A stretch of DNA of 64,000 bases, from positions 42,171,253-42,235,252 of the forward strand of contig OU452199.1 in the NCBI GenBank assembly GCA_911728435.2, in the 5' to 3' direction. Origin of the DNA: Apoderus coryli (Eukaryota; Arthropoda; Insecta; Coleoptera; Attelabidae). The number at the start of each line of letters is the position of its first letter. Positions within the stretch are counted from its first letter, which is position 1. Positions 29,315 through 63,820 of this stretch are shown one piece after another. Made by a program: the position numbers and the translations under genes. The notes under the pieces are model-generated. The model saw only the letters and a list, made by a program, of their open reading frames with translations, made no database searches and was not told the DNA's origin.

Positions 29315-29365
29315 TATAAAAAAAGTCTATATAAACACTACGTGCAACTCCCAAGGATCTTAGTA
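29315..29365 (+). promoter_or_regulatory. TATA-type promoter at the head of the giant array
   Basis: TATAAAAAAA at about 29,315 and TATATAAA at 29,328-29,335 lie immediately before the first exon-like block. Counting ~30-34 nt from the second gives a start near 29,360 (TCTTAGT). The first candidate exon ends GAAGAATG before the donor GTAAAATATG at 29,398. No other TATA box of this quality occurs at the head of the repeats. Confidence 0.45.
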
Positions 29366-29464
29366 CTGGTGTGGAGATCATCTTCAATGGAAGAATGGTA
29401 AAATATGTTGTAACAAGTATTTTGTAGAAATATAACTGCGATTATAATTTTCTAGGTTATTGTC

Positions 29465-29496
29465 CAATAATTAAGCTGCGATACGCTTAATTATTG
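29465..29496 (+). repeat. 12-bp hairpin in the second candidate exon
   Basis: CAATAATTAAGC (29,465-29,476) pairs perfectly with 29,485-29,496 around the loop TGCGATAC. It fills most of the 45-nt block between the acceptor at 29,455 and the donor at 29,501. Confidence 0.7.
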
Positions 29497-30005
29497 AGCG
29501 GTACCGTCGCTTTTGTAGATTGAATTTTGATTTTTTACAGCTTGAAGCATATCATGTTAGGAAATCTGGCAAAAGCTTCGTTAATTGGGAGTTTAAGTAC
29601 TAGGTAAGACTGTTTCAGGCTGTAGTTAAATTGAAATTCTATCTTTTGGCGATTTTCTTTAAAATTAAACAAATAAATTTGGGATTTACTATATTGATAA
29701 AAAATTAATTGGGACGCCGATTATATATTTTTATTAATGTAGTTCATTCTTGTTAAATAACTATTTCATTATTTTCAGATATTTTATCGGATATTATTTT
29801 CATTTACGATATTGTTTACCATGTATTTGTCACTGTAAGTTTCATTTTGTTTGGTTTCAAAATGTTCACTTTAAATCAATCAAAAACTGATTCTTATAGT
29901 GATAAAATATTGGATTGTAAATGACTATTATGTTCGCAAAATTCTGTAATAATGCCGAATAACTGAAGCTAGTTTTATTATTTGCGATTGTAATATTTTT
30001 CATAG

Positions 30006-31404
30006 GTATGAACACATCTACTTCACAGTCTGGTGCTGAAAAAAGTTCAGTCGACAACTTTTGCAGTGCCTGCTGACAATTACAATAATACTTCAAAGTA
30101 GTACCACCACAACAGACAATTATGCAACTGTCCTTGAGCACACCAAGTCATGAATGAGTCCTTAATACGTAAAACGGTCGTCCGTGTTTAAAGCCTTGTG
30201 GTTGAGTAATTAAAATTAATAAGTGACGAGAAGTAGTCTTTAGCGTTAGAAAATGTGTCTTTGGTTCGATTGTTTAAGTAGGGAAGAATCCAAACGACTC
30301 GTTTCCTTGGTATTACCGAAAGACCTGCACAACTGCACATGCTTTTTAATGGCAACATTACATGCACATTGTCAATCAAATTTTTGGTTTTAAAATGGAT
30401 AAGGAGATGGGGATACATCGGCAATAAGAGGTAGGTACTATGTTGCTGTTTTGAGTTGACTTTGCATTAAATCTTGATGCGAAACGATTGAACAAAATTT
30501 TATTACTGCATCTGATTGACAAGTAAAAGTAGCAGACTGAAAGGAAAATTAAATTTGGTCAATTTTGACATTGTATTAATTTTATTTTCATTTGAATTAA
30601 TGAATAAATACCAATCAACTTTTATAATAACACAATTGTTGCGATAAATCGACGAATTATTATTTGCTGTTAATATTTTTCATAGGTTTGGCACGCAAAC
30701 AGTGGTCTGAAAAAAGTTTAGTCGACAACTTTTCCAGTACCATCTGAAAATACCGTTAAAAGTTCCCGAAATACAGAGAAAACCTGTCCTTTAGCCAACA
30801 CCAATGTTTGAAATGTTACCAGAGCTTGTACAATAACGAAATCGCTTCACATGTCCTGGCACAGAGGCGTACATAACAGGCAAACATTTAAATTTAAAAA
30901 AACCTTTTGTGGAATTAATAATTGTAGGGGAATATATTACATCTACTTGTCTAAAGTAAATTACAACACTGCCTATCCCCTATGCATGTGGCTGGCAAAT
31001 GGAGGATTCCCCATCAGTTGCAGGTAATTTGTTGGGAACCTTTGTCGATTGATCTCAAGAATAATATGTACACATACCTACCTACTATTTTGTATTTTGA
31101 TATTTTTCATAGGTTGCCATACACGTTGCAGTCTGGTGCTGATAAAAGTTCAGTCGACAACTTTTCCAGTGCCAACTTGCAGCAAAACGTACAACCATAG
31201 GTAGTAACGAAATCTGTCAACCATAAACGTGTTTCCCTGAAGGCGTGTAATTATCGCCCCATAGTTAGTCAATTGCCGTGACCCACTTTTCAACTAGATA
31301 GGAAGATGTGGTTAAATGAAATCTGAATTCTATTCTAGTAGTATTAACATCTTTCATCTGCAATTTTGTGTAATTGTTGACGAGGAGGATGAAAATGTTG
31401 TAAG
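30006..31404 (+). repeat. array regime 1: three ~300-430-nt exon-like units
   Basis: Units start after TTTTTCATAG at 30,005, 30,685 and 31,112 and share CTGAAAAAAGTT(C/T)AGTCGA followed by CAACTTTT(C/G)CAGT. They end at donors GTAGGTAC (30,431) and GTAATTTGTTG (31,024 and 31,405). Units 1 and 3 read SGA(E/D)KSSVDNF in one frame, with a stop soon after. The repeated boundary sequences, not only the interiors, are conserved. Confidence 0.6.
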
Positions 31405-33600
31405 GTAATTTGTTGCTCTTTTACTTTTATATTATTATATCTTTACTTTTAGAGTTAAACTCGCCGTCCTAGTATTCGATAATCTTATATTTTTATTAAA
31501 CATTGAGAACTACATATCCAAATCTGATGACTATAACAATCCAAAATTTGGTAGTCGAACAACTTTTTCGTTGGTGGTATTTTGTATCGTTTACAATTTC
31601 ATAATTTTGGTTATTTTTATTTGTTTTTTGTTTATCTATTTTTAGTTTTTTTCTACAAATTTATTATAATTGACACGATGATTATCGAAATTTAATGAAT
31701 AGTTAAATATTACCAAAAATTATGAAGATATATTAGACCAAAATAGCAATTGAACACAGAAAAAACTCACATTACGGTGAAATATTCTACGAAAGAAACA
31801 ACAAATTTGAGAAAAGTTTACTTAAAAGGATACAAGAGTTATTATACTCTAACTTTGAGAACATTTAAATTACAAATAAATTACCTTTCAGTTGATACTT
31901 TTAGCGAAGAAATTATCCGTCACTAAAGTTATAAATTTGTGCGATTATAGTTCATATGGAAGATACAATATCAAAATACTAATAATTGCATTAAAACCGG
32001 GGACTTCTCCTGTAGATATTGTGATAAAATATTTTTTCCAGTAAGCTTGCTAATTTTAACGAAAACCCAACTATGACAATCAAACTCATTATGAATCGAC
32101 CCTTCCAAAACACTGACACCCAGGTGCGAACAACTCTCGATTTGGTTTTTGGTAGTGTTCCAAGTTTAGAACATTTTATCCTGTCAAATGTTCCAACGTT
32201 GGATTGTATTTCCAGATAAGTCAATTTTGAGTTCAGTTAATATCATAAATCAATGGTAAAACAAGAAAAAGTTTGAATTATTTAAAAATGCATGCTTTGG
32301 TAAATTATGTTTAGGTTCTCGACGTTAATTAATATTTTTCAGCATTTGAAGTCTATTATGAGATTTTTATTAGTTGATTTTGAATCAATGAAATATTGAG
32401 ACATTTTCAGTCAAACAAATATATTTTTATAATTAAATGCAACAGTTGGAGCTTAGAAGGGAACAAAATTCAAGATTTTGCGCTGTGTTTTATGTTGCGA
32501 ATCCTTGATGAGACAACTTTTAGATTTATTGTTTTGAACAGTGACAATTTTGAATGAACCATAATATCAATGTAAATGGAAAATGCTGTTAAGTTTTCAC
32601 AGTGAAAGAAGGAATTAATTCAATATCTTGATAGAAAACAATGGAATTTTGCTTTATATTTGTAACTATTATGAATAATATGTCATAATCAAAAATTTGA
32701 AAAAGTTAATTGGTTGTACTATTATCGTCAAATTTTAGGTTTCTCCATAAAATCGAGTCAAAAGTTAATAATCCAAAGCTCATCTGGTAAAGTAATATTT
32801 TTTATACTTTTCAAATATCGTAAAATAAATTTAAATCAAGAAAACAGAAGAATGAAGACGCCATAATTAACAAAATATTCATATTAAATAATATACAATC
32901 GAATAAAGGGTTAATTTCATAATTCTTCAGGGTATGTAGGTCTTGTATCATTCGATATGGTTTTACAATATTTTCTAGAATGCTATTCAATCAAGAATCA
33001 TCAGGACCAAATTGTCGTAAGTTGATAAAACTTTGCATAGTCGATTTTCAACACTAAAAAATGGTCCAAAAATTTTGGACGAAGATAGTAATTGTTTAAA
33101 TAGAGAAAAATATCGCGATTTGCTTCAATTTTGGAGACATATGGTGAAGATCCAAACCAGGCTAAGTTTCAGATGCTGGATTGATTTATTTTTGATAAAA
33201 GGAGAACTTGGAAAGTGTGAATGGTGAAAAATGAATTGCAAGAAAAAATTCTGTATTTATATTTAAAGCATAATTTTATAGGATGTACCTATGTTCCCGG
33301 AATTAGAAGTTAATAAATTGTTTTAATTCTGTCCAATTTCCACATCATAAGTAACGTTTCGTTATCTAATATTGTTTGCACCAGCCTTTTCTAAAAAACC
33401 TGATTGTGGTACAAATAATATTACCGAAATGTTGTGGAGATGGGGAAGTTGGACAAAATAAACTTTTTTTACATGAGCTAGCTTATTTGACAAACAGAAA
33501 ATACAATTTCGTTAGAAAGTTTTGTGAAAAGTTCCAAGAATATTGAAACTGTAGAATAAATGCGGTTTGGAAATATTTGTTAGTTCTACGCAAGTTGAAA
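31405..33600. other. A+T-rich stretch between array regimes
   Basis: About 2.2 kb with weak, diverged similarity to its neighbours (isolated TTTTTCCAG/TTTTAG sites) and no clear repeat period. No protein or RNA gene recognised. It may be a long intron or decayed cassettes. Confidence 0.35.
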
Positions 33601-33673
33601 TTATAAATGGTTAATTTTGTTTTGAAGAACATCATGGTTTTTGAAAACTTACGGAAACAATTTGAAGAAGAAG

Positions 33674-36600
33674 GTAATTTTTTATATAAAAAGAAAGTTT
33701 TTGGCAGTTACAGGAATACCTAATTCATTTATACTTAAATTCCTAACCAATTATACATGGCCTTTCTGCTCAAGAATGGTTCTGCAGAATACAAGATCAT
33801 CCGTGTTTTGAATCACAACAAATAGATCAATCTCAACTAGTCATGTCTCATAACAGAAGATTCCAGTTCCAGTAAAATAGAGAAAAACCAGTCTTGTGTT
33901 AAGAGTATTGTCATCAATTTATCCTTATAAAAAAAGTTTACATATTTTGGAGAAGACATTTCTGATTAGAAGTAGCATATCAAAATGGTTTCGAAGTGGT
34001 TTGTGAATAATTAGAAGCCTCTGGTGTCAAGGTAATTTTTCATGTATAAAGAGGGTTGTTTTTGTCAGTTTGTAGGAATAAGTTTATCTAAAAATGTACA
34101 ACAGCAAATGGCTTACGATTTTTGATTTATAAAACGCGTGGTATTTGATTGCCCAAGCAAAATTTAGGCCCAACTTTGAAGATTTGTGCAAGATTAAAGT
34201 TTATGGAAGCGTGGATAAGACTTAACGGTAAACGTAAAATAGAGAAATACCAGTCTTGTGTTCAAGTTTCAGATGATGGAATGCATGTTTAGAATTATTT
34301 GTTTAATGGTACTGTCCATATTTTCACATTTTGCGAGAAGATAAGTTCCAAGTACTTGTTTTTTATCGCTAATGGAGTCTGAAGATAATTGAAGTAGAAG
34401 ACTATATTATCATAAAATAGCCCAATCCAGAAAATCTTTCAGCAATTATGAACGTTAATCTAATTAGCATTTTTCACAAGATATTATTTCCAAAAGATGA
34501 CAGCGATCAACAGAAAATATTAGGAGGACCTTTTAACGGTAAACATAAAATTGCCCAAATCGGTTTTATTTTAGATATCAGACTGAATCAACAGTACATT
34601 TATTAGTTCATTTTTAAATTATCGAAATTACGCAAGGAACAGATTTCCACAAGATGTTTTCGTCTGAAGCCTTTGGGTTATGGAAAGAGTGGCAGATTTT
34701 GTTAGACGGTAAAAATACGATACAACCAACTTGGTTTGCTTTGATTTTTAGCAGTGAAGAAAAATTGTGTTTATGAACGAAGTAGTATTTCTTGTTCGGC
34801 AATTTGAGAGTTGGAGTATTGTCATCAATTTATCTTAATAAAAATGATATTTTTGTATTAAAAATTTTACATATTTTGGAGAAGACAATTCGAATTAGAA
34901 ATAGCATATCAAAATGGTTTCGAAGTGTACTGTGGTTAATTAGAAGCATCTGGTTTCAAGGTAATTTTTCATCTATAAAAAAGGTTGTTTTTGTCAGTTT
35001 GTAGGAATAAGTTTATCTAAAAATGTACAACAGCAAATGGCTTACGATTTGATTTATAAAACGCGTGGTATTTGACTGCCCAAGCAAAATTTAGGCCCAA
35101 CTTTGAAGATTTCTGCAAGATTAAAGTTTATGGAAGTGTGGATACCTAAGACTTAACGGTAAACGTAAAATAGAGAAAAACCAGTCTTGTGTTAAGTTTT
35201 AGATGATGGAAAGCTTGTTTAGAATTATTTGTTTAATGTTACTGTCCATATTTTTATATTTTGCGAGAAGAGAGGTTTTAATCGCTGATGAAGTTTGAAG
35301 ATTATTGAAGTAAAAGAAGACTATATCATAAAATGGCCTAATCGAGAAAATCTTTCAGCAATTATGAACGTTATTTTAATTAGTATTTTTCAAAAGATAT
35401 TATTTCCAAGAGATGACAGCGATCAACAGAAAATATTAGGAGGACCTTTTAACGGTAAACATAAAATTGCCGAAATCGGTTTTATTTTAGTTTCAGACTG
35501 AATGAACAGACAGTACTTTTATAGTTTATTTTCAATATATCGAAATTACGCAAGAACCAGTTTTCCACAAGCTGTTTTCCTCTGAAGCCTTTGGTTTATG
35601 GAAAGAGTAGCAGATTTTGTTAGACGGTAAAAATACGATACAACAAACTTGGTTTGCTTTGGGTTTTAGCAGTGATGAAAAATTGTGCTTATGAACGTAG
35701 TAGTATTTCTTGTCCGCCGATATGAGAGTTTGACTATTCTCATCAATTTATCTTAATAAAAATGATATTTTTGTAATAAAGATTTTACATATTTTGGAGA
35801 AGACAATTCGAATTAGAAATAGCATATCAAAATGGTTTTGAAGTGTTCTGTGATTAATTAGAAGCATCTGGTTTCAAGGTTATTTTTCATCTATAAAAAA
35901 GGTTGTTTTTGTCAGTTTGTAGGCATAAGTTTATCTAAAAATGTACAACAGCAAATGGCTTACGATTTGATCTATAAAACGGGTGGTATTTGACTGCCCA
36001 AGCGAAATCTAGGGCCAACTTTGAAGATTTGTGCAAGATTAAAGTTTATGGAAGCGTGGATAAGACTTAACGGTAAACGTAAAATAGAGAAGAACGAGTC
36101 TTGTGTTCAAGTTTCAGATGATGGAAAGCATGTTTAGAATTAGTTGTTTAATGGTACTGTCCATATTTTCACATTTTGCGAGAAGATAAGTTCCAAGTAC
36201 TTGTTTTTTATCGCTAATGGAGTCTGAAGATAATTGAAGTAGAAGAAGACTATATTATCATAAAATAGCCCAATCCAGAAAATCTTTCAGCAATTATGAA
36301 CGTTAATCTAATTAGCATTTTTCACAAGATATTATTTCCAAAAGATGACAGCGATCAACAGAAAATATTAGGAGGACCTTTTAACGGTAAACATAAAATT
36401 GCCCAAATCGGTTTTATTTTAGATATCAGACTGAATCAACAGTACATTTATTAGTTCATTTTTAAATTATCGAAATTACGCAAGGAACAGATTTCCACAA
36501 GATGTTTTCGTCTGAAGCCTTTGGGTTATGGAAAGAGTGGCAGATTTTGTTAGACGGTAAAAATACGATACAACCAACTTGGTTTGCTTTGATTTTTAGC

Positions 36601-38860
36601 AGTGAAGAAAAATTGTGTTTATGAACGAAGTAGTATTTCTTGTTCGGCAATTTGAGAGTTGGAGTATTGTCATCAATTTATCTTAATAAAAATGATATTT
36701 TTGTATTAAAAATTTTACATATTTTGGAGAAGACAATTCGAATTAGAAATAGCATATCAAAATGGTTTCGAAGTGTACTGTGGTTAATTAGAAGCATCTG
36801 GTTTCAAGGTAATTTTTCATCTATAAAAAGGGTTGTTTTTGTCAGTTTGTAGGAATAAGTTTATCTAAAAATGTACAACAGCAAATGGTTTACGATTTGA
36901 TTTATAAAACGCGTGGTATTTGACTGCCCAAGCAAAATTTAGGCCCAACTTTGAAGATTTGTGCAAGATTAAAGTTTATGGAAGCGTGGATAAGACGGTA
37001 AACGTAAAATAGAGAAGAACCAGTCTTGTGTTCAAGTTTCAGATGATGGAAAGCATGTTTAGAATTATTTGTTTAATGTTACTGTCCATATTTTCACATT
37101 TTGCGAGAGGAGAAGTTATAATTGTTTTTTAAACGCTAATGGAGTTTGAAGTAGAATCATAAAATTGCCCAATCCAGAAAATCTTTCAGCAATTATGAAC
37201 GTTATTTTAGTTAGTATCTTTCACAAGATATTAATTACAAGAGATGACTGCGATCAACAGAAAATATTAGGAGGACCTTTTAACGGTAAACATAAAATTG
37301 CCGAAATCGGTTTTATTTTAGTTTCAGACTGAATGAACAGACAGTACTTTTATAGTTTATTTTTAAATTATCGAAATTACGCAAGGAACAGATTTCCACA
37401 ATATGTTTTCGTCTGAAGCCTTGGGTTTATGGAAAGAGTAGCAAATTTTGTTAGACGGTAAAAATACGATACAACAAACTTGGTTTGCTTTGATTTATAG
37501 CAGTGAAGAAAAATTGGGTTTATGAACGAAGTCGTATTTCTTGTTCGAGGATTTGAGAGTTTGACTATTGTCATCAATTTATCTTAATAAAAACGATATT
37601 TTAAGATTTTACATATTTTGGAGAAGACAATTCGAATTAGAAATAACATATCAAAATGGTTTCCAAGTTTTCTGCGATTAATTAGAAGCATCTGGTTTCA
37701 AGGTAATGAATTTTTCATCTATAAAAAGGGTTGTTTTTGTCAGTTTGTAGGAATAAGTTTATCTAAAAATGTACAACAGCAAATGGCTTACGATTTGATT
37801 TATAAAACGCGTGGTATTTGACTGCCCAAGCAAAATTTAGGCCCAGCTTTGAAGATTTGTGCAAGATTAAAGTTTATGGAAGCGTAGATAAGACTTAACG
37901 GTAAACGTAAAATAGAGAACAACCAGTCTTGTGTTCAAGTTTCAGATGATGGAAAGCATGTTTAGAATTATTTGTTTAATGTTACTGTCTATATTTTCGC
38001 ATTTTGCGAGAAGAGAAGTTATAATTGTATTTTAATCGCTAATGGAGTTTGAAGATTATTGAAGTAAAAGAAGACTATGTCATAAAATGGGCCAAGCCAA
38101 AAAATCTTTCAGCAATTATGAACGTTATTTTAATTACTATTTTTCAAAACATTATTTCCAAGAGATGACAGCGATCAACAGAAAATATTAGGAGGACCTT
38201 TTAACGGTAAACATAAAATTTCCCAAATCGGTTTTATTTTAGTTTCAGACTGAATGAACAGGCAGTTCTTTTATAGTTTATTTTCAATATATCGAAATTA
38301 TTACGCAAGAAACAGATGTTGTTTTCGTCTGAAGCCTTTGGTTTATGGAAAGAGTAGCAGATTTTGTTAGACGGTAAAAATACGTTACAACAAACTTGGT
38401 TTGCTTTGATTTTTAGCAGTGAAGAAAAATTGTGTTTATGAACGAAGTAGTATTTCTTGTTCTGCGATTTGAGAGTTGGAGTATTGTCATCAATTTATCT
38501 TAATAAAAACGATAGTTTTGTATGAAAGATTTTACATATTTTGGAGAGTACAATTGGAATTAGAAACAGCATATCAAAATGGTTTCGAAGTGTTCTGTGA
38601 TTAATTAGAAGCATCTGGTTTCAAGGTAATTTTTCATCCATGAAAAGGGTTGTTTTTGTCAGTTTGTAGGAATAAGTTTATTTAAAAATGTACAATAGCA
38701 AAATGCTTACAATTCGATTTATAAATCGCGTGCCCAAGCATAATTTAGGCCTAGCCGAAGATTTGTGCAAGATTGAAGTTTATGGAAACGTGGACACCTC
38801 ACGGTAAAAATAAAATAGAACAACACCGGCCTTTGTTTCAAGTTTCAGATGCAGCAAAAT
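33674..38860 (+). repeat. array regime 2: ~920-bp tandem units, five to six copies
   Basis: The junction TTTCAAG before a GTAATTTTTC-type start recurs at 34,032, 34,961, 35,879, 36,809, 37,703 and 38,625 (periods 929, 918, 930, 894, 922); an older relative is at 33,674. Each unit holds four intron-like spacers. In the unit starting 34,032 region these are 34,228-34,272 (45 nt), 34,539-34,574 (36 nt), 34,709-34,751 (43 nt) and 34,961-35,004 (44 nt). Most are preceded by (A)ACG and end in TTTCAG or TTTTAG. Copies keep these boundaries while differing elsewhere. Alternate units are nearly identical (for example 34,614-34,802 and 36,462-36,650), so a 1,848-bp dimer was duplicated recently. Confidence 0.85.
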
Positions 38861-40280
38861 TATTTTGGGTCGTTTATATTTTTCAATTTGGGGATAAATT
38901 ATAGAGAAAAGTTTGAAGGAATTGGAGAACTGGTAAAGAATGAAATACGAGAGACCCCGGATTTCTTTTTAATTTTAGTTTAGACTACCAGCGAATTTTA
39001 GACAATTTTTAATGGATATTTGAGAATCTATATTAATGGGAATGACCAGGAAATATTAAATGAAAATCAGTTTCGATAAAAAAATTTAGGTTCGTTTTGA
39101 TTAGTCAAAGAAGAGAAATTCGGTCTGCTTGATTTGTAGCAGAAAATGTTGTACATGATTTCTTGACAGCAGAAGTGGACAGTGCTAAACGGAATACGAC
39201 AGTTTCTGGTAAAATTAAATACAACAAATCGCCATTTTGTTTTGAAGTTTTAGAATGTTTAATGCCAAAATTGATTGGAGCATCATTTATTTGAGAATTT
39301 AACCATCAATTTGATATCGTGACTGCCAAAATCCTGTTTTTCGGTAGATATTTGAGTCGCGCACAGGTAAAAATAACATTCTTATATCAATCGCGGTTTT
39401 GTCTTAAGTTTTAGGCTTGTACTAACCAAGCTTTACTAAATTGTTGTGCTGTCAATCAAGGAGGACATTTTACAAGTATTGATGTTTCGTTCCACGGTAA
39501 TTGAAATTTCAGCAAATTCTATATTTCTTTTGTTTTACAGAACATGCCTGAATTCTATAAATATACTTAATAAAAAAATACAATTAGCTTATGAGAATTG
39601 CTCCATCTATAGATTACGAAGGGTCGCTTGGGTACTTATCAATAACATGAATAAATTGGGAGTTGGGAGTAAAATTCAATTTGTTTCGAAATTAGAAGTT
39701 GACTATATACTAATATTCTTCTATATATGAATTGCTGCAATGAAGAGACTACAACACTAAAAGTGACTCTATGTGAGGTAAAAGTTTTGAGATACAGAAA
39801 ACGCAGTTTTTGTTTTTAGAGTTTCAGACTTGTATTACATTTTCAACTGTCTGTGAAACAATAATATTATGTAAACAGTTACAAATATGTACTTTGAAAG
39901 AAGAAGATGGTGGCTACAAATTTTATCATCTACTTCAACGAAGAAAGCCAATGAAGCTTGTTCCAATGTGCGATGACCAATACATTAAACTTTAACAACG
40001 CACTTTTGCTTTAAATTTAATATTTTTTTAAATATTTCGGACCAAATAAACATTCAAATAACAAAATTTTCAGAAAGAATTACATATCATTTTATAAATA
40101 CATTTTGATTGCTGACTAATATTATGAAGAAAAGAAGAATAACAAGGAAGTAGTTAAAGTCGTGAAATATGGAAAGCATTTTTTAGTTACGTTACATAAT
40201 ATGTATTGAAACGTCAAGTCTGTTGAAATTATATTATAGTCACTGAACTAAATAATGGAAAACGCGAGTTTTGTTTTAAA
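38861..40280 (+). repeat. array regime 3: diverged cassettes linking regimes 2 and 4
   Basis: Non-identical blocks separated by GTAA-starting spacers of about 40-55 nt. Examples are GTAAAATTAAATACAAC...TTTTAG near 39,208-39,252, GTAAAAATAACATTC...TTTTAG near 39,367-39,412, and GTAATTGAAATTTCAG...TTTTACAG near 39,498-39,540. The stretch 39,540-39,730 is open for ~60 codons in one frame but has no family resemblance. The boundaries match those of the flanking regimes, so this is probably the least homogenised part of the array. Confidence 0.55.
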
Positions 40281-49200: not shown

Positions 49201-49620
49201 TTTTAGTTTAAGTTACAGACTTTTCTGAAGTACCATCTAGCACTTGCTACTATGACGAAAATGAATCCAGATGTGTTCCTGAGAAATAATCAAAGTCAAG
49301 ATTTGAGCGGTAAATTTTTAAAAAACGAACAACGCGATATTTGCTTTCAGTTACAGATTACAAGGTCCTCCATTAAAAAAGGTCCTACAAAAAATATATC
49401 AACTCAACATCTGCTACAGAAAATCTCTAAAATAAGAACGACGCGAAATTTCACTTACGGTTTAAAGGTCACGTGATTCTGCTGAAAATATACAACAGAA
49501 GACTTGCGATTTGGGCACGGTAAAAACTTTAAAATACGGAAAGCCATTTTTGTTTTAAGTTATAGAATTCCTGAGAATCACTCAATTGCTGTAGGGAAAA
49601 AAGGATCTAAGGAAGCCCGA
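40281..49620 (+). repeat. array regime 4: ~135-nt exon-spacer cassettes, ~65-70 copies
   Basis: Blocks of about 55-95 nt ending GATTTGTGCG or ATTGTGGGCG alternate with spacers of about 45-48 nt that share one consensus: GTAAA, then TTTAAAATACGRAAA, then TTTTGTTTTAAGTTACAG or TTTTCAGTTACAG. Measured examples are 41,099-41,145 (47 nt) and 47,643-47,690 (48 nt). Higher-order copying is clear: 41,998-42,740 and 42,731-43,470 are nearly identical (733-bp shift), and 45,825, 46,179 and 46,533 start 354-bp units. Single cassettes can be open from acceptor to donor (one at ~57,360 reads DYKVLQLKCPTKRKQC then RKATTSSEDFQFVHG), but different copies are open in different frames. Most have stops. Confidence 0.82.
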
Positions 49621-49689
49621 AGAAAAATTCGATGATCAGGATGGTTTTAAAAAGACAACTGCGAAGAGACCATTCGGGCGAACCATTCC

Positions 49690-52600: not shown

Positions 52601-55200
52601 AAGAGTCAATTCGGGCCAACGATTCCAGTGCAACATTTCAGTATGTTTCCAGGTTGACGAAGAAGAAGATGCTACGGTGATGTTCCAAGACGACGGGCGT
52701 ATACTTCGGCGGGTTCCATGGCGACGATCAGGATGGTGTTACGAAGACAACTGCCAAGAGTCAATTCGGGCCAACGATTCCAGTGCAACATTTCAGTATG
52801 TTTCCAGGTTGACGAAGAAGAAGATGCTACAGTGATGTTCCAAGACGACGGGCGTATACTTCGGCGGGTTCCATGGCGACGATCAGGATAGTGTTAAGAA
52901 GACAACTGCCAAGAGTCAATTCGGGCCAACGATTCCAGTGCAACATTTCAGTATGTTTCCAGGTTGACGAAGAAGAAGATGCTACGGTGATGTTCCAAGA
53001 CGACGGGCGTATACTTCGGCGGGTTCCATGGCGACGATCAGGATGGTGTTACGAAGACAACTGCCAAGAGTCAATTCGGGCCAACGATTCCAGTGCAACA
53101 TTTCAGTATGTTTCCAGGTTGACGAAGAAGAAGATGCTACAGTGATGTTCCAAGACGACGGGCGTATACCTCGGCGGGTTCCATGGCGACGATCAGGATA
53201 GTGTTAAGAAGACAACTGCCAAGAGTCAATTCGGGCCAACGATTCCAGTGCAACATTTCAGTATGTTTCCAGGTTGACGAAGAAGAAGATGCTACAGTGA
53301 TGTTCCAAGACCACGGGCGTAAACTTCGGCGGGTTCCAGGGCGACGATCAGGATGGTGTTAAGAAGACAACTACCAAGAGTGAATTCGGGCCAACGATTC
53401 CAGTGCAACATTTCAGTATGTTTCCAGGTTGACGAAGAAGAAGATGCTACGGTGATGTTCCAAGACGACGGGCGTATACTTCGGCGGGTTCCATGGCGAC
53501 GATCAGGATGGTGTTACGAAGACAACTGCCAAGAGTCAATTCGGGCCAACGATTCCAGTGCAACATTTCAGTATGTTTCCAGGTTGACGAAGAAGAAGAT
53601 GCTACAGTGATGTTCCAAGACGACGGGCGTATACCTCGGCGGGTTCCATGGCGACGATCAGGATAGTGTTAAGAAGACAACTGCCAAGAGTCAATTCGGG
53701 CCAACGATTCCAGTGCAACATTTCAGTATGTTTCCAGGTTGACGAAGAAGAAGATGCTACGGTGATGTTGCAAGACGACGGGCGTATACTTCGGCGGGTT
53801 CCATGGCGACGATCAGGATGGTGTTACGAAGACAACTGCCAAGAGTCAATTCGGGCCAACGATTCCAGTGCAACATTTCAGTATGTTTCCAGGTTGACGA
53901 AGAAGAAGATGCTACAGTGATGTTCCAAGACGACGGGCGTATACCTCGGCGGGTTCCATGGCGACGATCAGGATAGTGTTAAGAAGACAACTGCCAAGAG
54001 TCAATTCGGGCCAACGATTCCAGTGCAACATTTCAGTATGTTTCCAGGTTGACGAAGAAGAAGATGCTACAGTGATGTTCCAAGACGACGGGCGTATACC
54101 TCGGCGGGTTCCATGGCGACGATCAGGATAGTGTTAAGAAGACAACTGCCAAGAGTCAATTCGGGCCAACGATTCCAGTGCAACATTTCAGTATGTTTCC
54201 AGGTTGACGAAGAAGAAGATGCTACGGTGATGTTCCAAGACGACGGGCGTATACTTCGGCGGGTTCCATGGCGACGATCAGGATGGTGTTACGAAGACAA
54301 CTGCCAAGAGTCAATTCGGGCCAACGATTCCAGTGCAACATTTCAGTATGTTTCCAGGTTGACGAAGAAGAAGATGCTACAGTGATGTTCCAAGACGACG
54401 GGCGTATACCTCGGCGGGTTCCATGGCGACGATCAGGATAGTGTTAAGAAGACAACTGCCAAGAGTCAATTCGGGCCAACGATTCCAGTGCAACATTTCA
54501 GTATGTTTCCAGGTTGACGAAGAAGAAGATGCTACAGTGATGTTCCAAGACGACGGGCGTATACTTCGGCGGGTTCCATGGCGACGATCAGGATGGTGTT
54601 ACGAAGACAACTGCCAAGAGTCAATTCGGGCCAACGATTCCAGTGCAACATTTCAGTATGTTTCCAGGTTGATGAAGAAGATGCTACGGTGATGTTCCAA
54701 GACGACGGGCGTATACTTCGGCGGGTTCCATGGCGACGATCAGGATGGTGTTACGAAGACAACTGCCAAGAGTCAATTCGGGCCAACGATTCCAGTGCAA
54801 CATTTCAGTATGTTTCCAGGTTGATGAAGAAGATGCTACGGTGATGTTCCAAGACGACGGGCGTATACTTCGGCGGGTTTCATGGCGACGATCAGGACGG
54901 TGTTAAGAAGACAACTGCCAAGACTCAATTTGGGCCAACGATTCCAGTGCAACATTTCAGTATGTTTCCAGGTTGACGAAGAAGATGCTACGGTGATGTG
55001 CCAAGACGACGGACGTGACGTATACTTCGGCGGGTTCCATGGCGACAATCAGGATGGTTTTAAGAAGACAACTGCCAAGAGTCAATTCGGGCGAAATTCC
55101 AGTGCAATATTTCACTATGTTTCCAGGTTGACGAAGAAGAACATGCTACGGTGATGTTCGAAGGCGAGGGGCGTATCCTTCGGCCGGTTCCATGGCGACG
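49690..55200 (+). repeat. array regime 5: 155-bp satellite, ~35 copies, with higher-order periods
   Basis: The unit is 155 bp, about 50% G+C with 11 CpGs. It contains TGACGAAGAAGAAGATGCTA, GTGATGTTCCAAGACGACGG, GCGTATACTTCGGCGGGTTC and AACGATTCCAGTGCAACATT in that order. Two alternating variants (GGTGTTAAGAAG with CCTCGG, GGTGTTACGAAG with CTTCGG) give a 310-bp dimer. A rarer variant, CAAGACCACGGGCGTAAAC, at about 50,052, 52,220 and 53,305 gives a 1,085-bp (seven-unit) period and a spacing near twice that. Because 155 is not a multiple of 3, a frame reads one unit, then the next in another frame, and stops after ~90 codons. The recurring 90-codon ORFs are therefore an artefact of the period. 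Confidence 0.95.
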
Positions 55201-57600
55201 ATCTGGATGGTTTTAAGAAGACAACACGTTTCCAGATTGGAACCTAATCTATAATTTCACGGCGACGATCACGGTCCTACAATATGGTACAAAAAGAAAA
55301 CAATGTAGAAAAACTATTACATCATCAAAAGACTTCCGATTTGTGCGCTGTAAAAGCTTAAATATGGAGTGCTATTTTTTGGTTTAAGTTACAGACTTTT
55401 CTGGAGCATCTAGCATTTGCTACTATGACGAAAATAAATCCAGATATGTTCCTGAAAAATAATCAGAGTCAAGATTTGAGCGGTAAATTTTTAAAACACG
55501 AACAACGCGATATTTGCTTTCTAGCAAGAGATCTACTGAACATCTGCTACAGAACGTGCAAGGTTAAAACATTAGAATATGAAAAGCCATTTTTGTTTTA
55601 AGTTATAGCATTCCTGAGAATCACTTAATTACTGTTGAGAAGAAAGGGACTAAGGAATCCTGAAGAAAAATTCGTTGCCAGTACAGAAACATGGACGGTA
55701 GTAATATGAAATGATGAAAGATGTGCCATGGCGTTGATCAGGATGGTTTTAAAGAAGACTACTGTGAAGGCGATTCGGGCGAACGATCAAGTGCAACATT
55801 TCAACATGTTTCCAGGATGACGAAGAAGAAGAGCCTACGGTGATGTTTCAAAGCGACGGGCTGATACTTAGGCAGGTTCCATGACTACGATCAGGATGGT
55901 TTTAAGAAGACAACTGCGAGGAGACGATTCCGGCGAACGATTCCAGTGCAACATTTCAGCATGTTTCCAGGATGACGAAAATAAGATCCTACGGTGCTGT
56001 TCCAATGCAACGGGCATAGACTTCGAGCGGTTGCATGGCGACGATCAGGATAGTTTTAAGTAGACGACTGCGGAGACAATTCGGACAAACGATTCCAGTG
56101 CAACATTTCAGTATCATTCCAGGATGACGAAGAAGAAGATGCTACGGTGATGTTCCAAGGTAACAAGATAGTTATTAGAAAATGTTATCGATTTTTGTGC
56201 AACATTTTAACATGTTTCCAGGTCGACCAAGAACACGTTTTCACGGCGATGGTGAAGATGGTGCTAATACAACTAGACGGGCAATTTTTCTGTCAGGAGG
56301 AGATTAATTCCAAAGCGGACGATTCCACTGCAACTTATGAACACGTTTCCAGATTGGAACCTAACCTATAATTTCACGGCGACGAGCATAGTCCTACAAT
56401 GTCGTACAAAAAGAAAGCTATGTAGAAAATCCATTACGTCATCAGAAGACTTCCGATTTGTGCGCGGTACAACCTTAAGCCATTTAAGTTTTAAGCTAGA
56501 CTTTTCTGAAGGACCATCTAGCATTTGCTACTATGACGAAAATGAATCCAGATATGTTCCTGAAAAGTAATCCGAGTCAAGATATGAGCGATAAATTTTC
56601 AAAAATACGAACAACACGATATTTTCTTTCAGTTACAGATTTCAAGGCCTCTAATTAAAATGTCCTACAACAAAGAGATCTACTAAACATCCGCTACAGA
56701 AGACTTGTGAACACGATTTGTGTTCGGTAAAAACTTTAAAATACGGAAAAGGCATTTTTGTTTTAAGTTATAGAATTTTTGAGAATGGCTGTCGAGAAGA
56801 AACGAGCTAAGTAAGCCCGAAGAAAAATTCGTTGCCACTACAGACACATTATGGACGGTAATAATATGAAATACAGACAAAACGCATTTTTGGTATCAGT
56901 TACAGAATTTCCAAAAGCATAATGTCATCATTTGCTGCAAAGAAGAAAATGAAACCAAATGGTGTTACCAAAAAAATATCCGAATCAAGATTTGTGCGGT
57001 GGTAAATCAATAAAATATGAAAAACCCGGGATTTTGTTTTCAGTTGCAGATTAACAAACTCCTGCAATGAAGTCTTACAAGATGGACCTCTACAGAAAAT
57101 CTACTAGATCGCAGGAAAACTTAGATTTGTGCACGGTAAAAACTTGAAAATACGGAAAGGCATTTTTGTTTTAAGTTCCAGAATTTCCTAAGTAGCATAT
57201 ACATTTACACCGCAGTGAAGAAAGTGATACCAAATGATGTTCCTCTCATCTAGCATTTGCTACTATGACGAAAATGAAGACAGATGATTTTCCTGAAAAA
57301 TAATCCGAGTGGAGCGGTAAATTGTTAAATACGAAAATCTCGGTCTTTGTTTTCAGTTACAGATTACAAAGTCCTGCAATTAAAATGCCCTACAAAAAGA
57401 AAACAATGTAGAAAAGCTACTACATCATCAGAAGACTTCCAATTTGTGCACGGTAAAATCTTTAAAATACGGAAAGCCGTTTTTGTTGTAAGTTATAGGA
57501 TTCCTGAGAATCACTCAATTACTGTAGAGAAGCAAGGAACTAAGGAAGCCTGAAGAAAAATTCCTTTCCACTACAGAAACATTGTGGACGGTAATATGAA
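55201..57600 (+). repeat. regime-4-type cassettes mixed with decayed 155-bp units
   Basis: The GTAAAA...TTTTAAGTTACAG spacers return (for example around 55,350, 56,727 and 57,130), alternating with diverged 155-bp copies (55,735-56,150). Blocks such as ACTTTTCTGAAGGACCATC followed by TAGCATTTGCTACTATGACG connect directly to regime 4. The interleaving shows the 155-bp family expanded inside the cassette array rather than beside it. Confidence 0.7.
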
Positions 57601-59450
57601 ATTATGATGTTCCATGCCGACGATCAGGATGCTTTTAAGAAAACTACTGTGAAGACAATTCGGACCAACGATTCCAGTACAACATTTCAGCATGTTTCCA
57701 GGTTGACTAAGAAGAAGATGCGACGGTGACGTTCCAAGGCGACGGGCTTATCGCCGTTTCCATGGCGACGATGAGGATGGTTTTAAGAAGACGACTGCGA
57801 AGAGATGATTCAAGTGCAACATGTGAGCATGCTTCCAGGTTGACGAAGAACATGCTACGGTGATGTTCCAAGACGACGGGCGTATACTTCGGCGGGTTCT
57901 ATGGCGCCGATCAGGATGGTGTTAAGAAGACAAATGCCAAGAGTCAATTCGGGCCAACGATTCCAGTGCAACATTTCAGTATGTATCCAGGTTGACGAAG
58001 AAGAAGATGCTACGGTGATGTTCCAAGACGACGGGCGTATACTTCTGCGGGTTCCATCGCGACGATCAGGATGGTTTTAAGAAGACAACTGCCAAGACTC
58101 AATTCGGGCCAACGATTCCAGTGCAACATTTCAGTATGTTTCCAGGTTGACGAAGAAGAAGATGCTACGGTGATGTTCCGAGACGACGGGCCTATACTTC
58201 GGCGGGTTCCATGGCGACGATCAGGATGGTTTTAAGAAGACAACTGCCAAGAGTCAATTCGGGCCAACGATTCCAGTGCAACATTTCAGTATGTTTCCAG
58301 GTTGACGAAGAAGAAGATGCTACGGTGATGTTCCGAGACGACGGGCCTATACTTCGGCGGGTTCCATGGCGACGATCAGGATGGTTTTAAGAAGACAACT
58401 GCCAAGAGTCAATTCGGGCCAACGATTCCAGTGCAACATTTCAGTATGTTTCCAGGTTGACGAAGAAGAACATGCTACGGTGATGTTCCAAGACGACGGG
58501 CGTATACTTCGGCGGGTTCCATGGCGACGATCAGGATGGTGTTAAGAGGACAACTGCCAAGAGTCAATTCGGGCCAACGATTCCAGTGCAACATTTCAGT
58601 ATGTTTCCAGGTTGACGAAGAAGACGACGGGGGTATACTTCGGCGGGATCTATGGCGACGATCAGGATGGTTTTAAGAAGACAACTGCCAAGAGTCAATT
58701 CGGGCCAACAATTCCAGTGCAACATTTCAGCATGTTTCCAGGTTGACGAAGACGAAGATGCTACGGTGACGTTCCAAGGCGACGTGTTTATGGCGACGAT
58801 TAAGATGGTTTTAAGAAGACGACTGCGAAGAGACAATTCAGGCAAACGATTCCATGTTAACATTTCAGCATTTTTCCAGGTTGACGAAGAAGAAGATGCT
58901 ACGGTGATCCAATGCAACGAGCGTATACTTTATGTCGACGATTCGGATGGTTTTAAGACGACGCCTGCGATGGAACAATTCAGGCGAACGATTCAAGTGC
59001 AACATTTTAGCATGTCTTGAAAGTTGAAGAAGTATACGATACGCTGATGTTCCAAGGCGATGAGCGTATACTTCGGCATGTTCCATGGAGACGATCCGGA
59101 TGGGTTTAAGACGACCACTGCGAAGAGGCAATTCAGAGAGACGATTCAAGTGCAACATTTCAGCATGTTTCCAGGTTGACGAAAATGATACTATGGTGAT
59201 TTTCCAAGGCGACAGACGTATACTTCGGCAGGTTCCATGGCGACGATCACGATGGCTTTAAGAAGACGACTGTGAAGAGACAATTTCCAGGTTGACGAAG
59301 AAAAAGAAGATGCTACGGTGATGTTCCAATGCGACGACCGTATACCTGACGAGATCGTTATTAGAAAATGATATGATCGATTTCATTGCAACATTTCAAC
59401 ATGTTTCCAGGTCGACTAACACCACGTTTCCACGGCGATGATCAAGATAG
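57601..59450 (+). repeat. second block of 155-bp units, progressively diverged
   Basis: Units from about 57,850 to 58,700 remain near-consensus. Toward 59,450 they lose identity and length and carry variants such as GCGTATACTTCGGCATGTTC. Decay toward the outer edge is the pattern expected when homogenisation by unequal exchange is strongest in the centre. Confidence 0.8.
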
Positions 59451-61190
59451 TTAATAATACACAATTTGACAATTGACAATTCTATGATGCGAGTAAAAGG
59501 CTTTACGTACAATAACGATTTAATTGGTATGGGTGAATAAAGATTCCAAAGCAACGATCCAGTTCTAAGAAGGTTAAGCTGGACATGTTACTGCTACGAT
59601 CTTGGCCGATTTACCAGGGAGACATCCAAGACAATAAATCCAGTGCAACCTAATCTGTTGTCAGGTTGGCGAAGAAGGTGCTACGACGACGATCAAGTGG
59701 TTCTAGGAAGATGATGATGGAAGAGACTGGCAATTTCACGGCACTTATTCCAGTGTTACAGTTCAACGAACGAATATCTCTGAATGTTTCCAGGTTCACG
59801 AAGGGAATAGTTCCACAGCTACAATCAAGATGGTTCTAAGACGAATGAGGCGGAAAATTTTACTACTACGAGCTGGGGCGATATCACAGAGCAATCCTGC
59901 GCAACATTTGTACATGTTTTCAGAAGAAATGGAACGATTCCATTCCGACGAGCGTAAACTTCGGCATGTTCCATGGTGATGCGCAGGTGAACTATTTCAG
60001 TACCACATTTCAGCATGCTTCCAGGTGAACGAAGATACTAAGGAGACGTTTAGATGATTAATAAGATGGCGAGCCGGAAAATTCAAATGTATTTTAGCAT
60101 TCCAGAGCAACGAACCAATATTTCAGGTTTTCACGTCGAAGATCAAGGTGGTTCTAGGAAGACAACTTTAGTGTTACTAGTTAAGGCGATTTCACGGTGA
60201 ACGATTCCAGTCCATTTCAACAGGTTTCCAGGTTCTAAGAACACAAGGCATTTCGACCAGCGATTTCTTAGACTTGTTCCATAGCGATGAATAAGAGCAT
60301 TCCAGGGCAACGCCACGGTCAGGATGATTTTAGAAGACTAAGACAACATCTACGGGGATTTTCACAATAAGCCCATGAGGCTGCAGTGAAACCGGGGACT
60401 AAAGTCGTACGGACCCTTTCAAAAAAAAAAGACAACATCTAGGAAAACGTTTCCAGTGCAACAAACGAAGATTTCAACACGTTTCTTCTCGGTTTACGAA
60501 GAAGCGGGTTGTTCACGCCGATGGCAGGGATTGTTTTAAGAAGACAAATGGTTTGGATGCGATGAACGATTGTTTCAGCTTGTCTCCAGGATTACGAACA
60601 TGTCGTAACGACCAGCAAGGTTGATTCCAATGGACAGTTCTACAAAGATGACGACATTGATGATTCCACGACGACGACGAGTATGGAATGGAGCTTTCAG
60701 GGTAATTTTGTATGACAATATCGACGTTTCCCAGGGGACAAAAGGGTTCACGGTGACAACGAGCGTGCTGGGTCAGGCATGAGGTGAGTTTTAGAAATCA
60801 TACTGAATACAGATACATTTTATAGTGATACGAAATTTTCAGAAGACGTGTTTTAGTACGACTTTTAACCACAGCGAAGATGCGGATGATTCCACGGCGA
60901 AGAAGACGGGGATATCAGGTCGTACGGTAGCAGAGTGTTTCACTTCAGCAATGATGAACGAAGAGAATATTGCATTGTTTGGTTCAGAGAAGAGCCTTGT
61001 GAATTCTTGGGCAAAGAATTGTTCAAAATCATGACAGGGTTTTCAGGGAAACATAGACTAATGGTTGTATCAGCAACGAAGGTGGTAACAGCAATGAAGA
61101 GCACGTTTCAACAGCGGTGAAGAATCAGATGATTCCTCAGCGAAGAATAGATGGATGGTTTCAGCCCGGCTAGAAGAGAAGAATAGTTTC
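59451..61190 (+). repeat. array regime 6: strongly diverged units, transition zone
   Basis: Scattered fragments of the 155-bp unit (GTTTCCAGGTTCACGAAG near 59,787; CAACATTTCAGCATGCTTCC near 60,005) give way to GCGAAGATGCGGATGATTCC (~60,875) and AGCGGTGAAGAATCAGATG (~61,113), which foreshadow the terminal satellite. No gene recognised. Confidence 0.55.
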
Positions 61191-63519
61191 AGAATGGTGA
61201 AGTGCGGTGATTAAGGTGCAGATGTGGTTACACGGCGTAGAAGTGAGGATGGTTCCACAACGGTCAAGGGCCAGATAGTTAACACAGCGGTGAAGATGGT
61301 TCCACAAGGGGCAAATAATTCCACAGCGGCCAAGGGGCAGATAGTTACACGGCGGTGAAGAATACGATGGTTCCACAACGGTCAAAGGGCAGATGGTTAC
61401 ACGGCGGTGAAGAGGATGGTTCCACAGCGGCGAAGAAGAGGATGGTTCCACAACGGTCGAGGGGCAGATGGTTACAGGGCGGTGAAGAGGATGGTTCAAC
61501 AGCGGCGACGGGGCAGATGGGTACACAGGGGTGAAGAGGATGGTTCCACAAGGGGCAAATAATTCCACAGCGGCCAAGGGGCAGATGGTTACACGGCGGT
61601 GAAGAATAGGATGGTTCCACAACGGTCAAAGGGCAGATGGTTACACGGCGGTGAAGAGGATGGTTCCACAGCGGCGACGGGGCAGATGGGTACACAGCGG
61701 TGAAGAAGAGGATAGTTCCACAGCGGCCAAGGGGCAGATGGTTACACGGCGGTGAAGAGGATGGTTCCACAGCGGCGAAGAAGAGGATGGTTCCACAACG
61801 GTCGAGGGGCAGATGGTTACAGGGCGGTGAAGAGGATGGTTCCACAAGGGGCAAATAATTCCACAGCGGCCAAGGGGCAGATGGTTACACGGCGGTGAAG
61901 AGGATGGTTCCACAGCGGTGAAGAATAGGATGGTTCCACAACGGTCGAGGGGCAGATGGTTACAGGGCGGTGAAGAGGATGGTTCCACAGCGTCGACGGT
62001 GCAGATGGGTACACAGCGGTGAAGAGGATGGTTCCACAGCGGCGACGGGGCAGATGGGTACACAGCGGTGAAGAGGATGGTTCCACAAGGGGCAAATAAT
62101 TCCACAGCGGCCAAGGGGCAGATGGTTACACGGCGGTGAAGAGGATGGTTCCACAGCGGCGAAGAAGAGGATGGTTCCACAACGGTCGAGGGGCAGATGG
62201 TTACAGGGCGGTGAAGAGGATGGTTCCACAGCGGCGACGGGGCAGATGGGTACACAGCGGTGAAGAGGATGGTTCCACAAGGGGCAAATAATTCCACAGC
62301 GGCCAAGGGGCAGATGGTTACACGGCGGTGAAGAGGATGGTTCCACAGCGGTGAAGAATAGGATGGTTCCACAACGGTCGAGGGGCAGATGGTTACAGGG
62401 CGGTGAAGAGGATGGTTCCACAGCGGCGACGGGGCAGATGGGTACACAGCGGTGAAGAGGATGGTTCCACAAGGGGCAAATAATTCCACAGCGGCCAAGG
62501 GGCAGATGGTTACACGGCGGTGAAGAGGATGGTTCCACAGCGGTGAAGAATAGGATGGTTCCACAACGGTCGAGGGGCAGATGGTTACAGGGCGGTGAAG
62601 AGGATGGTTCCACAGCGGCGACGGGGCAGATGGGTACACAGCGGTGAAGAGGATGGTTCCACAGCGGCGACGGGGCAGATGGGTACACAGCGGCGAAGAG
62701 GATGGTTCCACAATGGGCAAATAATTCCACAGCGGCCAAGGGGCAGATGGTTACACGGCGGTGAAGAGGATGGTTCCACAGCGGTGAAGAATAGCATGGT
62801 TCCACAACGGTCGAGGGGCAGATGGTTACAGGGCGGTGAAGAGGATGGTTCCACAGCGGCGACGGGGCAGATGGGTACACAGCGGTGAAGAGGATGGTTC
62901 CACAAGGGGCAAATAATTCCACAGCGGCCAAGGGGCAGATGGTTTCACGGCGGTGAAGAGGATGGTTCCACAGCGGTGAAGAATAGGATGGTTCCACAAC
63001 GGTCGAGGGGCAGATGGTTACAGGGCGGTGAAGAAGATGGTCCCACAGCGGCGACGGGGCAGATGGGTACACAGCGGTGAAGAGGATGGTTCCACAAGGG
63101 GCAAATAATTCCACAGCGGCCAAGGTGCAGATGGTTACACGGCGGTGAAGAGGATGGTTCCACAGCGGCGACGGGGCAGATGGGTACACAGCGGTGAAGA
63201 GGATGGTTCCACAAGGGGCAAATAATTCCACAGCGGCCAAGGGGCAGATGGTTACACGGCGGTGAAGAGGATGGTTCCACAGCGGTGAAGAATAGGATGG
63301 TTCCACAACGGTCGAGGGGCAGATGGTTACAGGGCGGTGAAGAGGATGGTTCCACAGCGGCGACGGGGCAGATGGGTACACAGCGGCCAAGGTGCAGATG
63401 GTTACACGGCGGTGAAGAGGATGGTTCCACAGCGGTGAGGAATAGGACGGTTCCACAGCGGTGAAGAAGATGGTTCCACAGAGATGAAGAAGAGGATGGT
63501 TCCACACTACGAGGACGAG
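61191..63519 (+). repeat. array regime 7: 24/48-bp satellite in 192-bp higher-order units
   Basis: The core GATGGTTCCACAGCGGTGAA recurs every ~24-50 bp. The marker GCAAATAATTCCACAG occurs at 61,311, 61,555, 61,851, 62,092, 62,284, 62,476, 62,718, 62,909, 63,101 and 63,218. Spacings cluster at 191-192 and 241-244, with 296 and 117 once each, so units differ by whole ~50-75-bp subunits. The sequence is G+C-rich and purine-rich on the + strand. Since 24, 48 and 192 are multiples of 3, long frames stay open on the - strand (up to 515 codons at 63,507-61,960, rich in P, C and H). Several - strand frames are open at once, which argues against real coding. Confidence 0.93.
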
Positions 63520-63588
63520 GTAATAATTGTTCTTAGTACAAAGGGTTTAAAGTAATTCAAAAAATTAATTAAAATTTTATTATTCCAG
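63520..63588 (+). other. terminal intron of the array transcription unit
   Basis: GACGAG precedes GTAATAATTG at 63,520, and TTTTATTATTCCAG ends at 63,588, giving a 69-nt A+T-rich segment between two G+C-richer flanks. Size, donor, acceptor and composition all fit the introns of this genome (50-64 nt in the neighbouring genes) better than any spacer in the array. Confidence 0.6.
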
Positions 63589-63820
63589 CGATATTGGTGT
63601 GATTGCTAGCTAACTGACAGACAACTTAAGTGCTATAGCAATAACGCTCAGTCCTACATTAACGTCTTACTACCTGGCGTTACTGGATTATGGAGTGACC
63701 AAGACGAGTTTTCCGACGGTGGTCTTCGATGTTTATTGAAAATTATTGTTTAGCAAATCAAATTTAAAATAATTGTTTGTATTATGAAAATTGTGTGAAT
63801 AAAAAAATTATTAAATATTT
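63589..63820 (+). ncRNA. putative last exon with polyA signal
   Basis: Unique sequence after the satellite, starting CGATATTGGTGTGATTG. No long frame is open on the + strand. AATAAA at 63,798-63,803 follows a TTTTATTG-like A+T-rich stretch and would end the transcript near 63,820. Beyond it (63,821-64,000) the DNA is A+T-rich with nothing recognised. Confidence 0.5.

Follow-up and report, generated by a model that had tools for sequence, protein, structure and literature searches.

A tandem-repeat locus of the beetle Apoderus coryli as a candidate spliced noncoding gene with a recurrent purine motif

We analyzed 64,000 nucleotides of the genome of the beetle Apoderus coryli (contig C5, positions 42,171,253-42,235,252, here called the window; coordinates count from its first nucleotide). 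The assembly holds 428 Mb in 129 contigs. The window contains a tandem array of about 34 kb with roughly a hundred repeats of one cassette that includes a candidate minimal intron, and few columns of this cassette evolve as slowly as the splice signals. The array likely constitutes a spliced noncoding unit on the + strand. More tentatively, with a confidence slightly below even, we propose that it is one spliced RNA polymerase II (Pol II) long noncoding RNA (lncRNA) gene that acts as a platform for Tra2 and related serine/arginine-rich (SR) proteins. The cassette family, the constraint on its splice signals, the lack of a coding frame, the confinement of the queried stretches to a single locus and the + strand enrichment of AGAAGA were computed directly. 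We infer splicing from constraint, transcription from signals and function from motifs.

Cassette family and constraint on splice signals

A cassette profile was built from 22 seeds chosen by eye for GT...AG. With nhmmer it matches 104 copies in the window (34.2-57.5 kb), all 104 on the + strand and none on the - strand. Nine of the 104 are partial alignments and were excluded from the splice-site counts; among the 95 fully aligned cassettes, 92 retain GT, 89 retain AG, and 86 retain both. Counted over fixed columns, GT is found in 97% of 102 cassettes and AG in 93% of 97. The 86 intact introns are 33-50 nt long (mode 47). Four introns of the neighbouring pyrexia and COQ6-like genes, read by eye, have lengths of 41, 50, 53 and 56 nt, and the usual cassette intron (42-48 nt) is therefore in or near the normal range for the species. 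A preceding sequence-only reading had described a one-directional array with about a hundred GTAA...(T)nCAG/TAG spacers, which agrees with these counts, and two junctions it named (34,228/34,272 and 41,099/41,145) are among the 86 intact introns. As a separate observation, 74 of the 86 introns have a tandem acceptor with a second AG 6 nt upstream, maintained across the family (34.2-57.5 kb).

The constraint test considers which cassette columns stay constant as the copies diverge, expressed as Fitch changes per sequence on a tree of 97 of the 104 cassettes (seven are absent from the tree). The lowest values are found at the splice signals, namely GT (0.016), AG (0.016) and GTAA (0.013). The remaining regions are the T-tract (0.044), upstream exon (0.060), mid-intron (0.075) and downstream exon (0.094), with a mean over all columns of 0.070. 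GT and AG evolve about 4.5 times slower than the average column, and four random columns are equally slow in 0.16% of draws (permutation p = 0.0016). A MAFFT alignment of 28 hand-chosen cassettes, including one that has AT instead of GT, has a mean column identity of 50%. Of its 13 invariant columns, the 5' site accounts for the G at position -1 and for T, A and A; a further one is an A at branch-point-like distance, and the others are two T-tract columns (both T) and the pair of tandem acceptors together with the intervening TT. A control profile, built from the same matches with its GTAA and CAG columns randomised, gives 91 matches, of which 87 can be scored for GT (95% intact) and 88 for AG (91% intact), compared to 57% for the median dinucleotide; equally high are the TT that precedes the acceptor (98%) and an AA close to the branch-point-like stretch (97%). 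The splice signals thus rank with the most slowly evolving cassette columns.

We note that counting motifs does not yield this information. Between 34.0 and 49.6 kb, GTAA...YAG candidates number 53 on the + strand and 57 on the - strand, with 13.8 and 10.3 in Markov sequence. Since tandem repeats multiply chance motifs, the count proves nothing with respect to strand, and bare counting was discarded as a test, the - strand scoring as high as the + strand. The assertion of the sequence-only reading that the - strand holds nothing comparable fails as a statement on motif number and survives as a contrast in conservation: the best - strand columns reach 63% (GT-like) and 83% (AG-like), against the 97% and 93% given above. 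Of 54 pairs formed by adjacent cassettes, 31 keep the best - strand pairing intact, at a distance of 58-91 nt, versus 86 of 95 on the + strand, and the columns involved evolve near the average rate (0.067 for columns 33 and 34, 0.055 for columns 93 and 94, versus 0.016 on the + strand). Candidate pairs do exist on the - strand, with no sign of constraint on them as pairs, and a spliced unit in that direction is not favoured. Real splice sites in a tandem array are thus separable from motif noise by substitution rates across copies, not by motif counts.

Five stretches (29.29-31.40, 34.0-35.0, 40.56-41.20, 49.8-50.1 and 60.9-63.9 kb) were used as DNA queries against the 428-Mb assembly. All reported matches lie inside the window and none elsewhere; the first and the last stretch each match only themselves. 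This single-locus result rests on a search tool that scores the best candidates only and skips very common words.

Coding potential and RNA structure

The array has no continuous protein frame, in accordance with what had been read from the sequence. When splicing, use of the alternative acceptor or retention is chosen optimally for each intron between 34.1 and 49.6 kb, the longest frame has 117 codons, compared to a median of 118 for random exons. With the 86 introns removed from the whole unit, the longest frame has 161 codons (Markov sequences: mean 133, maximum 202). Most of the candidate exons listed have stops in all or most frames, although one or two frames stay open in some of the short exons; the three phases of the 75 candidate exons shorter than 300 nt are split 20/25/30. 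Two frames of the array have no relatives among 5.8 billion proteins in a word-based search. One of the two, a stop-free frame of 528 amino acids, lies on the - strand (61,960-63,546) and spans the array of about 24-bp units (VEPSSSPPCNHLPLDRCGTI... repeats). It was rejected as a protein: it is without relatives, and its length may stem from repeat periods divisible by three, such as 75, 117, 192 and 384.

Scans with Rfam and for tRNAs yield zero matches, the former at gathering score. Excess structure is absent in the seven stretches that were folded (z from -1.1 to +2.6). The upper end of this range is the unit of the 155-bp array, whose folding is weaker than that of its shuffled versions (z +2.6); the reverse complement behaves alike (z +2.5), and the weak folding is therefore not evidence for a strand. 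It fits what is expected of an accessible array.

Enrichment of a purine motif

Pentamers and hexamers were ranked by their minimum enrichment over five unlike stretches, namely the 5' exons, the superunits, the cassettes, the 155-bp array and the 24-bp array (55.25-61.06 kb was left out). The first rank is taken by GAAGA among 1024 pentamers and by AGAAGA among 4096 hexamers, followed by TTTCAG, the core of the 3' splice site, and GAAGAA. Of 150 simulated arrays of unrelated units, 0 reach the score of the pentamer and 3 that of the hexamer. Between 29,350 and 63,800, GAAGA occurs 358 times on the + strand versus 6 times on the - strand, and AGAAGA 177 versus 3 times. In the first 27 kb of the window (1-27,000) the corresponding numbers for GAAGA are 34 and 28, and in L009, one of two 10-kb controls downstream of the window, 11 and 12.

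The density of GAAGA is 12-fold higher in candidate exons shorter than 600 nt than in introns (6.1 versus 0.5 per kb). It peaks in the 155-bp and the 24-bp arrays (about 24 per kb), both of which lack micro-introns: over their approximately 11.6 kb there are zero GTAA...YAG candidates on the + strand. Because the motif is densest where micro-introns are missing, it probably does not serve micro-exon definition alone. The sequence-only reading had placed micro-introns throughout the array, which does not hold, as they are confined to 34.0-49.6 and 55.3-57.6 kb. Within the 155-bp family the slowly changing motifs are TTCCAGG (0.031) and AAGAAGAC (0.035), at a mean of 0.056. A hidden intron in the 155-bp unit was considered and rejected: its GTATAC changes faster than average (0.072 versus 0.056), the GT of a 5' site is not maintained, and the 155-bp array is consequently read as exonic.

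AGAAGA is the top Tra2-beta hexamer in crosslinking and immunoprecipitation (CLIP) and a published binding consensus (PMC3240583). The partner protein is named here from the motif only, on vertebrate data. Taking the spliced noncoding + strand unit as given, we slightly favour a function as a Tra2/SR platform. The gene would extend over about 34 kb, with a TATA promoter near 29.35 kb and a polyA signal at 63.8 kb. About 90 minimal introns, derived from serial duplication of one exon-intron cassette, would be spliced out of its 5' half. Several hundred AGAAGA/GAAGA motifs, of the kind bound by Tra2 and related SR proteins, would be spread over its exons and its two long intron-poor arrays. Multivalent binding of these proteins appears as the most likely function of such an RNA, which may be held in nuclear speckles or a similar body and there buffer or concentrate Tra2/SR proteins. 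The GA-rich 3' half is probably the binding part and the RNA probably nuclear.

Comparison with known noncoding RNA genes

A close fit for the intron-poor 3' arrays are GA-rich multivalent messenger RNAs (mRNAs), which are captured in speckles through TRA2 (interstasis); the effect is strongest inside long exons and is counteracted by exon density (PMC12629991). Both systems feature dense purine motifs and the Tra2 consensus, the intron-poor beetle arrays would correspond to the long exons, and the beetle array is dense in AGAAGA/GAAGA on the strand presumed to be transcribed (177 versus 3 and 358 versus 6 sites). The differences are that these mRNAs are coding and were described in mammalian cells (PMC12629991), whereas the beetle unit is noncoding and its binding is predicted from the motif.

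In Drosophila hsr-omega, an intron-containing 5' exon region precedes 5-15 kb of tandem repeats, and the nuclear RNA gathers RNA-processing proteins (PMC9865238). It resembles the putative beetle gene as an insect noncoding gene with a spliced 5' part and a repeat tail (PMC9865238). It differs in having, classically, one intron and 280-bp repeats, and no heat-shock element (GAANNTTCNNGAA, 0-1 mismatches) is present in the beetle promoter region at 29.0-29.4 kb, with 40 matches in the whole window versus 31.9 expected, a number no higher than chance would give; we note a likeness and claim no homology. Human SATIII lncRNA, the repeat RNA of nuclear stress bodies, recruits SR proteins such as SRSF1 (PMC9032817). 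SATIII differs in its origin from pericentric satellites, and the complete SATIII splicing reaction is, according to the review, not shown (PMC9032817).

Of the 13 human Firre exons, 7 contain the repeating RNA domain (RRD), a signal for retention in the nucleus (PMC4820808). Firre-like lncRNAs share with the beetle array local repeats at a single locus that make up most exons (PMC4820808), and the beetle repeats are likewise noncoding and, in the five stretches queried, confined to one locus. The beetle array differs by far more units, minimal introns, an AGAAGA purine motif instead of the RRD, and additional long intron-poor arrays. SNHG14, the host lncRNA of SNORD116 and SNORD115, consists of 29 + 48 tandem intron units with 145 annotated introns (PMC11608373), and is similar as a single noncoding unit with many tandem exon-intron copies (PMC11608373). 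Its introns hold small nucleolar RNAs (snoRNAs), whereas those of the beetle are 33-50 nt long with no cargo found, and the repeated motif resides in the exons.

Given the tandem intron units of SNHG14 (PMC11608373) and the repeat-built exons of Firre (PMC4820808), the suggestion that the array represents no described gene class was too strong. A comparable gene was not found among the matches listed in open-licence literature, and what sets the array apart is a combination: introns close to the minimum size in which no cargo was found, roughly a hundred copies of one cassette, and a single purine motif across unlike stretches.

If transcribed, the locus would be a very intron-dense noncoding gene whose introns seemingly lack cargo, which would imply selection on being spliced or on the exons. 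If the platform reading is true, one RNA with both halves would offer a natural test of whether purine multivalency sets nuclear retention and exon density counteracts it, and the idea of repeat-scaffold lncRNAs (hsr-omega, SATIII, Firre) would extend to beetles with a Tra2-type motif. A more far-reaching and rather doubtful version is a gene for splicing infrastructure. Here, about 90 cargo-less minimal introns would load the 5' half with spliceosomes and exon-junction complexes, and the 11.6 kb of AGAAGA arrays would load the 3' half with Tra2/SR proteins; the product might be a single-gene noncoding scaffold of a nuclear body or a Tra2 buffer, possibly feeding Tra/Tra2-dependent splicing such as sex determination.

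Weight of the evidence and alternative explanations

The interpretation of the array as a noncoding + strand spliced unit formed by serial cassette amplification has indirect support from the slow splice columns and the absence of a kept frame; two of its original arguments, the contrast in motifs with the - strand and micro-introns throughout, had to be given up. Several observations weigh against the proposal of a spliced Tra2/SR platform. With respect to splicing, GT is replaced by AT in 3 of the 95 fully aligned cassettes and CAG by CGG in 6 (five of the latter are similar cassettes, each with a further AG 8 nt downstream). The 5' G and the acceptor A undergo three changes each on the tree, and exon columns 10 and 88 likewise show zero change, so that slowness is not limited to splice sites. 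With respect to the motif, GAAGA is strand-biased in L010, the other of the two 10-kb downstream controls, as well (16 versus 3). Of 26 exon ends that could be compared, including one off-target match, 15 contain AGAAGA, i.e. the sites are not strictly kept, and 22 of 67 short exons contain neither GAAGA nor AGAAG. The longer GAAGAAGAAGA of the 155-bp family changes at a near-average rate (0.050 versus 0.056). The five stretches may be non-independent owing to remote shared ancestry, and GAAGA may serve only micro-exon definition, though it is densest where introns are absent. Finally, the partner protein is not fixed, because the consensus of SRSF1 resembles that of Tra2-beta (PMC3240583).

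A possible explanation, albeit an unlikely one, is a transcribed and spliced noncoding locus without function at the RNA level. Tandem expansion would then be neutral, and the splice signals would persist owing either to a mild harm caused by unspliced copies or to duplication too recent for decay. Consistent with this, many units are highly similar (96% matches in the 155-bp array), a second locus was not found with the five stretches queried in 428 Mb, and the two frames tried have no protein relatives. On the other hand, slow change concentrates at splice positions while the 28-row alignment averages 50% column identity, and the same purine hexamer is enriched in all five dissimilar stretches, more so than in most simulations.

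Satellite DNA or a uni-strand source of Piwi-interacting RNAs (piRNAs) with incidental splice-like sites is improbable. The tandem arrays do share one orientation, as such a source would. A genome-wide satellite, however, would occupy many loci, and each of the five queried stretches matches one locus in the assembly; moreover, the splice positions are constrained, and promoter-like and polyA-like signals lie at opposite ends.

A host gene for small RNAs in its introns or exons (snoRNA, microRNA or mirtron), in the style of SNHG14, is very improbable. In its favour, SNHG14 is itself a noncoding gene composed of tandem exon-intron units (PMC11608373). However, introns of 33-50 nt are too small for C/D or H/ACA RNAs, there is no Rfam match at gathering score, and the seven folded stretches remain at z -1.1 to +2.6; neither length, Rfam nor folding thus indicates a small RNA per repeated intron.

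Micro-exon gene families exist, and parts of the array have short open frames, yet a missed or decaying protein-coding gene of many micro-exons is hardly credible, as no frame is maintained across exons, spliced frames are no longer than random, the exon phases are split 20/25/30, the period of 155 bp is not divisible by three, and the two frames tried have no protein relatives.

Organization of the locus and neighbouring genes

All features of the putative gene are on the + strand. The core promoter candidate (29310-29365) consists of TATAAAAA and TATATAAA, followed by an initiator-like TTAGT at which transcription would start; the TATA-like sequence at about 29.31-29.34 kb would mark the 5' end of the unit. 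Approximately 45 bp upstream of the TATA-like sequence, GGGGAATTCC (29266-29275), a kB-like site, perfectly matches the NF-kB/Rel consensus. It could hint at immune induction; kB matches over the window are not rarer than chance (3 found versus 2.7 expected).

The 5' exons and introns (29350-31420) have strong 5' splice sites at 29604, 29835, 30431, 31024 and 31405; of the TATA-type promoter and 5'-end candidate introns that had been proposed, the TATA-like sequence and the first three of these sites are present in the sequence. In an alignment of three copies, the diverged 5' exon cassettes each open with TATTTTTCATAG/GT (the slash marks the predicted boundary) and have a common AAAAGTT-loop-AACTTTT motif. 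The corresponding AAAAGTT(C/T)AGTCGACAACTTTT at 30020-30065, 30700-30745 and 31125-31175 could form a 7-bp hairpin, the exons being otherwise diverged.

Five superunits of about 900 bp and a partial sixth follow at 34032-38660. Each full superunit contains four GT...AG candidate introns, three of which belong to the family found with the hidden Markov model (HMM) and the fourth was read by eye. A sequence resembling the doublesex repeat element (dsxRE), ACAGCGATCAACA or ACTGCGATCAACA, is present in all five full superunits (34500, 35416, 36348, 37247 and 38168), with 11 of 13 positions matching the consensus. As a signal the dsxRE (TCWWCRATCAACA) is unsupported: the window has 21 matches versus 18.6 expected, and five of them represent one repeat position.

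The main run of micro-intron cassettes of the HMM family (34218-49593, cassettes of about 110 bp) comprises 78 of the 86 intact introns, 15 before 38.8 kb and 63 after. It is followed by the 155-bp tandem repeat (49630-55225; about 36 copies, 96% matches, GC content 0.49, GAAGA at 24.4 per kb on the + strand and 0 on the - strand). A second run of micro-intron cassettes (55335-57529) contributes the other 8 intact introns; it lies between 155-type arrays and includes some 155-type units. Diverged 155-type repeats, which grade into older repeats, occupy 57610-61060, and by eye TTTCCAG/GTTGACGAAGA is retained in many of them. The array of about 24-bp repeats of the GATGGTTCCACAGCGGTGAAGAG type (61060-63506) has a GC content of 0.57 and GAAGA at 23.6 per kb on the + strand and 0 on the - strand. 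The terminal intron, GACGAG/GTAATAATTG...TTATTCCAG/CGATATT (63520-63588), would be spliced out before the terminal exon (63589-63820), which has AATAAA at 63798 and a putative cleavage site; both the intron and a polyA signal had been pointed out from the sequence and are present.

Upstream of the array lies a gene with a weak match to a FAD-binding (flavin adenine dinucleotide) domain (E 3e-4, below the curated cut-off), consistent with COQ6. Between this gene and the array, a small frame of 111 amino acids (28028-28363, +) has a TATA-like sequence upstream (27.74 kb), an AATAAA near 29.07 kb and no Pfam match; it is probably a small gene just 5' of the array. Further upstream, an exon of pyrexia, a transient receptor potential (TRP) channel, at 6.05-7.76 kb has 700 matches in a protein search, and among the matches listed (best 120 of 700) the first nine are all from beetles (longhorns, a weevil, Tribolium, Zophobas and leaf beetles), with at most 76% identity. 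A 174-bp tandem repeat with 7.4 copies at 9067-10340 is, by eye, unrelated to the array. The downstream neighbour is a frame about 0.3 kb past the end of the window (L009:284-625). Two near-identical long frames, mariner-like transposases by their look, flank the array at 1545-2630 of the window, where a DUF4817 helix-turn-helix domain is found, and at L010:3652-4743. A frame of 318 amino acids downstream of the array (L009:8870-9826, +) is by eye of the ionotropic-receptor type.

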